A stretch of DNA of 36,892 nt, taken from the NCBI GenBank assembly GCA_011523045.1, contig WTHR01000046.1, positions 13,687-50,578 on the forward strand, in the 5' to 3' direction. The translations under genes were made by a program, and so were the position numbers. Shown piece by piece: positions 11,365-13,526 of this stretch. A model generated the notes under the pieces. The model did no database searches. It saw nothing but the letters and a program-made list of their open reading frames with translations, and was not told the DNA's origin. Source of the stretch: Gammaproteobacteria bacterium (GTDB taxonomy: Bacteria; Pseudomonadota; Gammaproteobacteria; Arenicellales; UBA868). The stretch's first letter is position 1. Every line of letters begins with the position of its first letter.

Positions 11365-11372
<8 letters not shown>

Positions 11373-11961
11373 CGTCTGCCCTAATGCGTCCGATCAATTT
11401 GCCGGGATCCAGCTGCCAGACTTCAATTTCATCGTTACTCTGTCGAAATGAGGCCAGACATTCTTGGCTGAAGCAATTGCTGAGCGTGGCCTTAATTGCC
11501 ATATTCACCCCCTGATGACCCACGATCAGCATGTCGCCCTCCCTATCACTCAGGTTGGCAACCAGCTCCGCTATCCGTGATGCAACGTCGTGAATCGTCT
11601 CACCTCCCGGGGCAGCCAAAAGAAAGCAGGACTCGCGCCAGGCATCATACCCGGCAGGATCCTCCGCCCGCAGTTCCGCTTCATGCCGACCTTCAAACTG
11701 ACCCAGGTCAAGCTCAATCAGAGTTGGATCAGTCTCTACGTCACAGCCCACCGCTGCACCTAAAACCTGTGCGGTCTTCTGGGCTCTTAAGAGGGGTGAT
11801 GAAATCAGGCGCTGTGGTGCGCACCCCTGCGCCTTAAGCAAAGCCGCCAGCCGAAGTGCTTGATTCTGGCCTTGTGTATTAAGCGGAATATCGCTAACAG
11901 ACTGCCAACGCTGTTTAAGATTCCAGTCAGTTTGGCCGTGTCGTGCAATGAGAAGGCTCAT
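11365..11961 (-). CDS. Histidine phosphatase family protein (phosphoglycerate mutase-like)
   Basis: Branch-1 histidine phosphatase of about 198 residues from the ATG at 11961. The catalytic motif is RHGQTDWN with the phosphohistidine at residue 8; the usual supporting residues are visible in SSPLLRAQKTAQ (Arg) and VGHQGVNMAI (second His). An in-frame TTG 5 codons upstream is less likely than this ATG, which has a purine-rich GGGGTGG just before it. Members of this group include cobalamin/alpha-ribazole phosphatases and GpmB-like enzymes; the substrate cannot be assigned. It overlaps the AlkA-like gene downstream by 8 bases. Confidence 0.88.
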
Positions 11962-12050
11962 TTCCACCCCCCCCAAAGATCAGAATTATTCACTAGCGTC
12001 GCCGGGTGCTCCAGAAATCAGCAAGAGGCACAATGAGGCAGCACTAACTA

Positions 12051-12087: not shown

Positions 12088-12116
12088 TTGACTTTGCCCG
12101 AGCCAGTCAGTATTAT
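12088..12116 (+). promoter_or_regulatory. Sigma-70 promoter for the candidate small RNA
   Basis: TTGACT (12088-12093), exactly 17 bases of spacer, then TATTAT (12111-12116): five of six matches to consensus in each hexamer. The predicted start is about A12123. It faces a terminator 50 bases further on with no ORF between, so it most likely drives a short non-coding RNA. Confidence 0.75.
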
Positions 12117-12122
12117 TCTGCC

Positions 12123-12203
12123 AGGATTTGTGCAACGCACAATTTCTATTCATATCCTCCTCCAAATATTCAGCCCGCCCATCATTTCGGCGGGCTTTTT
12201 TTT
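12123..12203 (+). ncRNA. Candidate small RNA with anti-Shine-Dalgarno motif (about 81 nt)
   Basis: Predicted transcript from the sigma-70 promoter to the T tract of a strong terminator. The first hairpin is TTGTGC (12128-12133), loop AAC, GCACAA (12137-12142). The 5' end AGGAT (12123-12127) can also pair with ATCCT (12154-12158), stacking below it. CCTCCTCC (12156-12163) is the same as the 16S rRNA anti-Shine-Dalgarno core and complementary to AGGAGG. It lies between the hairpin and the terminator, partly maskable by the 5' end. This layout fits a trans-acting RNA that blocks ribosome binding; alphaproteobacterial sRNAs with CUCCUCC loops are a known parallel. No ORF of useful size fits. Inferred from sequence only; I do not recognise a named RNA family. 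Confidence 0.6.
12172..12203 (+). terminator. Rho-independent terminator of the candidate small RNA
   Basis: AGCCCGCC (12172-12179) and GGCGGGCT (12189-12196) form a perfect 8-bp stem with a 9-base loop, followed by an unbroken run of 8 T (12196-12203). It reads on the plus strand. No protein gene on this strand lies upstream of it within 1.4 kb. Confidence 0.9.
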
Positions 12204-12536
12204 AACTCGTGATTAATCAATAGAAACAGTCTATTAAGATATAATTCAAGGTTCTTTTGCATGAGTCATACGCCCTTTTTTTGACCTTATAAGAGCCTTT
12301 TATTCCACGGTAAGTTTTTCTTGTTGCATCGCAACATTATTGGCTCAACGCCTTTCGCAACACACCTTTCTTTCTGGGCATTGTACTTGGCTCTGTCAAG
12401 CGCGATCCCCCAAAACTTCCGAGATGAATATCGAGGCAAAACGACAGCAATGATTCCGCTTCGCCGAAGCAGTGCGCGCTAAGCATTAAAATCCCGTGCA
12501 TCCAGAACCTCTTGGTAAATTTCTAACGGACCCTCC
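12204..12536. other. Gene-free stretch between the candidate sRNA and the fabD-like gene
   Basis: No ORF longer than about 10 codons with a ribosome site is evident. It contains an inverted repeat AATAGA-AACAG-TCTATT (near 12219-12235), followed by TATAAT (12240-12245), and two small stem-loops (GTTGC-ATC-GCAAC near 12325-12337; GCTTC-GCC-GAAGC 12458-12470). The TATAAT could drive the fabD-like gene with a leader of nearly 300 bases, but no good -35 is present. Confidence 0.4.
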
Positions 12537-13526
12537 ATGACTGATCCTCTTCAATCTGCTCTGCTTGTTTTCCCGGGCCAGGGATCGCAGTACCCCGGGA
12601 TGGGCAGCGATCTATTCGACTCCTTCGAAACCGTAAGACAACTCTACGAGGAGGCCAGCGATACACTTGGCTATGATCTTGCTCGTCTTTCCTTTGAAGA
12701 TCCCGATAACAAAATTCATCTGACCCGATACACGCAGCCGGCTCTGCTTACTCACGCGATTGCCTGTCTTCGCATTTTTGAGGAACAGACAGGACAGCCG
12801 GTGACGCCCAAGGCTGCTGCGGGTCATAGTCTTGGAGAGTATTCTGCCTTGGTGGCCGCCGGTGCGCTGAGCTTCACGGACGCACTGCGCCTGGTCGACG
12901 AGCGTGGGCGACTCATGGGAGAACTGGGCGAAGGTGAAATGGAAGCGCTTCCGCTTGCCTTGGAGGAAGCCAAGGCTTTAGCGGAACAGCACTACTGTGC
13001 GGTAGCGGCCTGCAATCTGCCCGATCAGACGGTCGTTGGCGGTAAAGCGACAGACCTCAATCTCCTGGTCGAGACTTTCTCCAATCAGTTCCCGGGAAAG
13101 AAATCGGCAAGGCTCAAGACCGAAGGTGCGTTTCATACCTTCTACATGATCGGCGCGGCTCTTGAATTTCGAAGCGCACTGGAAAACACGGAACTCCAGC
13201 CCCCATCTGTCTCGGTACTCTCCAACACGACCGGGCACTTTCATGATTCGAATCCTCATAGCATCCGGGCAGCACTTTTCTCACAGCTGTTTAATCCGGT
13301 CCTTTGGCATGACAATCTCAGATATGCTGCCGAGCAGGGGTGCCGGACGATGATCGAGTTCGGTGGCGGCATTGGCAAAGGAGAGACTCCTGCCGAGAAA
13401 AAACCGAACCTGGCCGGGATCGTCAAGAAAACCTTCAGGCGAGATGATAATCCGCCGGAATATATTGGCATCATCAACACCGAAACACTTGCCCAGGCCA
13501 TCACCCGACTCCAGAACGGCGCATAG
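12537..13526 (+). CDS. Stand-alone FabD-like ACP S-malonyltransferase
   Basis: Acyltransferase-fold protein of 329 residues expected to move malonyl between CoA and an acyl carrier protein. Visible motifs are GQGSQ (14-18), the nucleophile GHSLG with S98, the Arg in DERGRLM (near 123), the catalytic His in EGAFHTFYM (H200; FabD has GAFHTPLM) and the Gln block QLFNPVLW. All catalytic positions are kept, but NLPDQTVVGG replaces the usual NSPxQ segment. It is not in a fabH-fabD-fabG-acpP cluster; neighbours are an sRNA candidate and an EamA transporter. It may be the housekeeping enzyme displaced, or a paralogue serving another ACP. Weak ribosome site. Confidence 0.85.
   Translation: MTDPLQSALLVFPGQGSQYPGMGSDLFDSFETVRQLYEEASDTLGYDLARLSFEDPDNKIHLTRYTQPALLTHAIACLRIFEEQTGQPVTPKAAAGHSLGEYSALVAAGALSFTDALRLVDERGRLMGELGEGEMEALPLALEEAKALAEQHYCAVAACNLPDQTVVGGKATDLNLLVETFSNQFPGKKSARLKTEGAFHTFYMIGAALEFRSALENTELQPPSVSVLSNTTGHFHDSNPHSIRAALFSQLFNPVLWHDNLRYAAEQGCRTMIEFGGGIGKGETPAEKKPNLAGIVKKTFRRDDNPPEYIGIINTETLAQAITRLQNGA

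Follow-up and report, generated by a model that had tools for sequence, protein, structure and literature searches.

RF02278 of Rfam is a betaproteobacterial toxic sRNA, the toxicity of which is seen when it is expressed in E. coli. The MmgR/alpha-r8 family is held in Rfam as RF00519, under the name suhB/mmgR. In Sinorhizobium meliloti, PhaR represses MmgR, an sRNA that limits, or fine-tunes, polyhydroxybutyrate (PHB), a polyester in which carbon is stored (PMC12542648, PMC8401924). The PhaR motif of that species is WNWD2NYGCRNYGCRNH2WNW, and gel shifts identified TTATTGTGCACTGCACAAATT before phaP1 and CAATTGTGCACCGCAGCATTA before mmgR as PhaR sites (PMC12542648). SisA-D, the alpha-r8 relatives in Caulobacter, repress many mRNAs via an anti-Shine-Dalgarno 10-mer (PMC12559287), and sX13 of Xanthomonas is a gammaproteobacterial C-rich sRNA that acts on G-rich sites near translation starts (PMC3771888). 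Published descriptions of a PHB-sensing repressor that drives an anti-Shine-Dalgarno sRNA were found from alphaproteobacteria only.

The locus described herein lies in a window (the whole stretch of DNA that was analysed) of 36,892 nucleotides from an Arenicellales gammaproteobacterium. An earlier note, made from the sequence of this window, had proposed an orphan sRNA gene with a promoter, a 5' hairpin, an anti-Shine-Dalgarno motif and a terminator, and a check of the sequence found all four in place. The features of the locus are as follows.

11365 to 11967, minus strand: CobC-like histidine phosphatase gene, the divergent upstream neighbour (PF00300; synteny)
12088 to 12116, plus strand: sigma-70-type promoter of the sRNA, with TTGACT at 12088-12093, a 17-base spacer and TATTAT at 12111-12116 (sequence and scan)
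12123 to 12203, plus strand: predicted 81-nt sRNA (fold, alignment A1, orthologues in the genus, family f7 and sister genus g4)
12123 to 12147, plus strand: 5' RNA hairpin, a 6-bp stem plus outer AGGA/UUCU (fold, pair counts)
12128 to 12142, no strand assigned: PhaR-type operator TTGTGCAACGCACAA (TTGTGC-AAC-GCACAA), overlapping the transcript start (palindrome kinship, matrix rank, loss without phaR)
12153 to 12163, plus strand: anti-Shine-Dalgarno core UAUCCUCCUCC, predicted to be single-stranded (unpaired in the fold; conservation of CCTCCTCC)
12172 to 12203, plus strand: intrinsic terminator, an 8-bp stem (12172-12179/12189-12196) with a 9-base loop, and T8 at 12196-12203 (fold, compensatory changes)
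12322 to 12336, no strand assigned: PhaR-type operator TGTTGCATCGCAACA, the second of the locus, lying 3' of the sRNA and ahead of the FabD-like gene (highest matrix score of the window; conservation)
12537 to 13526, plus strand: FabD-like acyltransferase gene, the downstream neighbour (PF00698; TIGR00128 below cut-off; synteny)

Transcription would start at about 12123. At -23.8 kcal/mol, the predicted RNA fold is far more stable than those of shuffled sequences (z = -5.4), and leaves UAUCCUCCUCC, which includes CCTCCTCC at 12156-12163, unpaired between two hairpins. A terminator scan overlooked the main terminator because its loop has nine bases. The promoter match by itself is at chance level (one found versus 1.0 expected in shuffles), and it is therefore conservation that sets the unit above chance. 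In a search of 100 related genomes, the sRNA was recovered from 18 of the 20 genomes of the genus, and the two without a clear orthologue are both incomplete MAGs (78 and 84%). Pairwise identity is high in the -35 (0.92) and -10 (0.81) elements, the palindrome (0.90), the core CCUCCUCC (0.99) and the T-run (0.90), whereas the promoter spacer (0.42) and the flanks, at 0.32-0.35 upstream and 0.43 downstream, are far less alike, a pattern indicative of a short independent transcription unit. TTGAC of the -35 element is invariant and the 17-base spacing constant in all 18 orthologues; CCTCCTCC is likewise invariant in 18 of 18, and also in f7 and g4. The terminator stem shows compensatory double changes (UA/GC and CG/UA), and the neighbouring phosphatase and acyltransferase genes are unchanged in every genus genome whose contig reaches them. 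Conservation of promoter, motif and terminator in related genomes, which had been named as a test of the proposal, is thus borne out.

No ORF is conserved at the locus. A GTG-started frame exists, and is broken across the orthologues by indels of 1-3 nt that alter the distance between hairpin and core. Nor does the RNA appear to be the leader or the 3' end of a longer mRNA, since the gene on its upstream side points away from it, and conservation extends over promoter and terminator as a single unit. By its sequence, this small RNA gene is a real, conserved and independent unit, which is presumably transcribed. The genus itself probably belongs to the marine sulfur-oxidising Arenicellales group, as several of its genomes carry dsrA.

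The earlier note had further proposed that the 5' AGGAU of the RNA masks the start of the anti-Shine-Dalgarno motif until some input opens it. Such a self-regulated switch is very improbable: while the window sequence does hold an AGGAU complementary to the start of CCUCCUCC, other orthologues have AGAAU, AGATT, GGATT, AAGAT, AGTTT or CAGAT at this place, and the fold pairs AGGA with UUCU beside the hairpin and leaves the core open. The hairpin at 12128-12142 is present in the predicted RNA fold; its identity as a PhaR-type operator had been missed. As to the covariation sought in this stem, the outer pairs, outside the operator core, vary on both sides between g1 and f7, which suggests that the RNA hairpin itself may also be under conservation. 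A DNA palindrome alone can mimic covariation inside the core, and not so readily outside it. Part of the conservation of the palindrome may thus serve the RNA fold rather than the operator.

The family and the order were searched with a covariance model (R1) built from the 18 genus sequences. Beyond the genus, orthologues were detected in a second family (f7) and a sister genus (g4), and weak matches (E 1.8e-4 to 6e-4) occurred in four of 369 genomes of the wider class. The same search returned two places with the palindrome only, one upstream of phaR (L055; TIGR01848, 131 bits) and the other immediately 5' of a gene for a phasin-like protein (L054; 27.5 bits, slightly below the cut-off of 30.2), and these prompted a test of TTGTGCANYGCACAA as the operator of PhaR. 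The phaR genes of the genus are preceded at a fixed place by TATTGC-NNN-GCACAA, and nearly every phasin gene there has two upstream sites spaced by 27 bp; in several families, phaC has a site some 220 bp ahead of the start of the domain. An operator matrix was trained on these phaR, phasin and phaC sites only, with the sRNA site excluded. Among 95,730 strand positions of the genome studied here (48 kb tested), TGTTGCATCGCAACA at 12322 ranked first and the sRNA site at 12128 second, both of these intergenic sites outranking the phaR site used in training, and only one of 737,560 shuffled positions scored as high as the sRNA site. Moreover, TTGTGCAACGCACAA fits the published motif NYGCRNYGCRN as well as the PhaR sites of its own genus, and the S. 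meliloti sites are of the same palindrome kind as those of the genus. By these sequence criteria, the 5' palindrome at 12128-12142 is a PhaR-type operator, to which PhaR would be expected to bind. It covers +6 to +20 of the sRNA and, once transcribed, would give the 5' hairpin. The second operator, which the earlier note did not contain, is seen in each of the 16 genus genomes that cover this region, 145-179 bases 3' of the CCTCCTCC core, and is absent in g4.

A PhaR-type palindrome, TTTTGCANYGCACAA, was also observed upstream of dsrA (TIGR02064, 633 bits), beside a TauD-family gene, in several genus genomes (L086, on contig C104 of the genome studied here, and L087, L088, L091, L096 and L066). 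Through this site, sulfur oxidation may be tied to PHB storage by PhaR.

The genome carrying the sRNA encodes both PhaR (153.7 bits) and PhaC (751 bits) above cut-off, and all 20 genomes examined have a gene for Hfq. Across the relatives, genera g1 and g3 as well as family f7 have PhaR and the PHB synthase PhaC, neither of which was found in g2, g4, g5 and g6 of the family of g1. The palindrome is present in the sRNAs of g1 and f7, and missing from those of g4, g5 and g6, which keep a C-rich core and the terminator. The g4 copy retains CCUCCUCC and is the orthologue, because it sits, as in g1, between the phosphatase and the FabD-like gene; in this genus without phaR and phaC, both operators have been lost from the sRNA region. 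Genus g3 has PhaR, yet only divergent sRNA copies without the palindrome. This co-occurrence is strong in kind, drawn from few independent lineages and a small sample. In g5, the sRNA copies (L038, L041 and L043) carry a GGTATAC-TG-TATACC palindrome over the promoter in place of the PhaR site, as if a different repressor had taken over.

In Rfam 15, the window sRNA matched no family at the gathering score. The claim that no described gammaproteobacterial family matches it thus holds for Rfam, where similarities are sub-threshold only, and needs to be qualified by sX13, a described C-rich sRNA of different architecture (PMC3771888). The closest systems, which the note had not named, are RF02278 and MmgR/alpha-r8. 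RF02278 gave the top Rfam score, 30.7 bits (up to 34.0 in orthologues) against a gathering score of 50, and RF00519 gave 20.8 bits (31.9 in the best orthologue, L012, which aligned over the whole model) against 41. As both scores are below gathering, membership was rejected and the sRNA is filed under neither.

The similarity to RF02278, being the best of all, might indicate a general translation-damping anti-Shine-Dalgarno RNA with no special link to PHB, in which the palindrome merely stabilises a hairpin; sub-threshold CUCCUCC RNAs occur in many gammaproteobacteria, and that nearly all of those looked at lack a nearby PhaR palindrome would agree with this. We consider it unlikely, in view not only of the gathering score that was not reached, but also of the palindrome itself, which as DNA matches PhaR sites elsewhere in these genomes, has a second site nearby, and is gone as a hairpin in g4, where phaR is missing and the remainder of the RNA stays.

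RNAs that resemble RF02278 and score just below threshold are spread over many families of the Gammaproteobacteria, with matches in 139 of 369 genomes at E<=0.01. Such loci (L168-L195 and others) carry CTCCTCCATCCTCCTTTGGTGG and a GC-rich terminator, often with a TTGACA/AATATTAGA promoter. This suggests that the family extends far beyond the Betaproteobacteria. These loci were also considered as PhaR targets and rejected; the palindrome is missing from nearly all of 23, with L167 and L178 matching a loose 9-base motif. A second, shorter type of anti-Shine-Dalgarno sRNA (GTTGTATCCTCCTCCTAAATATTGACCCCGG...) without a PhaR site occurs in at least six genus genomes (L199-L203, L040), so there seem to be sibling RNAs that are controlled differently. 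RNAs of a third type (GTTGTTTCCTCCTC.GCGTG plus terminator) were seen some 6 kb from phaR, in g3 and in three genomes of the genus (L196-L198, and L209 at 7572).

Common descent with MmgR/alpha-r8, i.e., one ancient PhaR-controlled family common to alpha- and gammaproteobacteria, is similarly improbable. The two RNAs are of the same length class (77 versus 81 nt), with a PhaR site at the promoter and an anti-Shine-Dalgarno core before the terminator, and the alignment of L012 spans the whole RF00519 model at 31.9 bits. Against this, the window sRNA reaches only 20.8 of the 41 bits needed, the core differs (CUCCCUAG in the model, CCUCCUCC here), and a scan through 85,000 named species recovered the combination of operator and core from this genus and f7 alone (Marine bacterium B5-7, two MAGs), chance matches apart. 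Matches in Pseudomonas, Salinicola, a planctomycete, Hebobacteria and Methanoperedenaceae were ascribed to chance, there being no terminator after the core.

The reading that we favour, and hold to be probable from the sequence and by analogy, is that of a trans-acting sRNA of the PHB regulon, repressed by PhaR, freed when PHB granules titrate PhaR, and blocking ribosome sites. PhaR binds DNA while PHB is scarce, and would then repress the sRNA from the operator overlapping the first transcribed bases, probably with the help of the second operator some 195 bp further on. An operator at +6 to +20 with another about 195 bp on would suit a blocked or looped promoter. Once granules form, PhaR is drawn onto them, and as PHB accumulates the sRNA would be made. 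It would probably be bound by Hfq, and its single-stranded UAUCCUCCUCC would pair with purine-rich ribosome-binding sites, such that translation of a set of mRNAs is lowered and carbon storage and metabolism are tuned, as is done by MmgR in Sinorhizobium. The precedents of MmgR and SisA-D make it most likely that the sRNA appears upon removal of PhaR by PHB granules and then blocks ribosome sites.

The PHB genes themselves find no support as targets. For phaC and the FabD-like gene, the predicted pairing with the sRNA is poor, and the phasin ribosome site was given -10.2 kcal/mol against a background mean of -9.3 (sd 3.5, 42 genes); the phasin, phaC, phaR and FabD-like mRNAs were rejected as targets, with pairing energies no better than background. 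In the genome studied here, GGAGGAGG occurs at start codons in nine places. Three of the nine, by their translations, open likely real genes, for a universal stress-like protein, a rhodanese-like sulfurtransferase and metK, with a perfect GGAGGAGG at a plausible distance; as six places matched the reversed control pattern, these are candidates only. Of the 42 genes, the divergent CobC-like gene has the strongest predicted pairing with the sRNA core (-20.3 kcal/mol), and its ribosome site carries a run of eight Gs (window 11961-11991, minus strand).

It is conceivable, though we would put it no higher than a tentative suggestion, that a PhaR circuit for the storage state joins an anti-ribosome-site sRNA, an acyltransferase gene and a dsrA promoter, with the sRNA operator doubling as the 5' hairpin, and that PhaR and an anti-Shine-Dalgarno RNA either came to be paired on two occasions in proteobacteria or form an ancient module. 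That a PHB-sensing repressor appears to be wired to an anti-Shine-Dalgarno sRNA in uncultured gammaproteobacteria as well, and to a different RNA, suggests a recurrent or ancient coupling of PHB to translation. An orphan sRNA thereby gains a testable input (PhaR and PHB), the search for its targets is no longer blind, and the sister genus that lost PhaR yet kept the RNA offers a natural experiment.

Compared with the known systems, the sRNA shares with RF02278 the CUCCUCC motif upstream of a GC-rich terminator, but the CUCCUC-bearing stem-loop of that model is missing here. Like sX13, it is gammaproteobacterial and has a C-rich motif; however, sX13 is 115 nt long, with three stem-loops that carry C-rich loops and a different synteny, whereas here the motif is single-stranded between two hairpins (PMC3771888). 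With MmgR/alpha-r8 it has in common a length of about 80 nt (77 versus 81 nt), a C-rich anti-Shine-Dalgarno core ahead of the terminator, and a PhaR (AniA) operator at the promoter with a link to PHB, which here is predicted (PMC12542648, PMC8401924, PMC12559287). The differences are that the sRNA here is gammaproteobacterial, that the cores (CCUCCUCC here; CUCCCUAG, consensus CUCCCU, in RF00519) are alike in kind and not in sequence, and that the operator lies between -35 and -10 of mmgR but within the first transcribed bases here. By analogy, this sRNA appears to work like MmgR, and is best read as the gammaproteobacterial counterpart of Sinorhizobium MmgR (alpha-r8).
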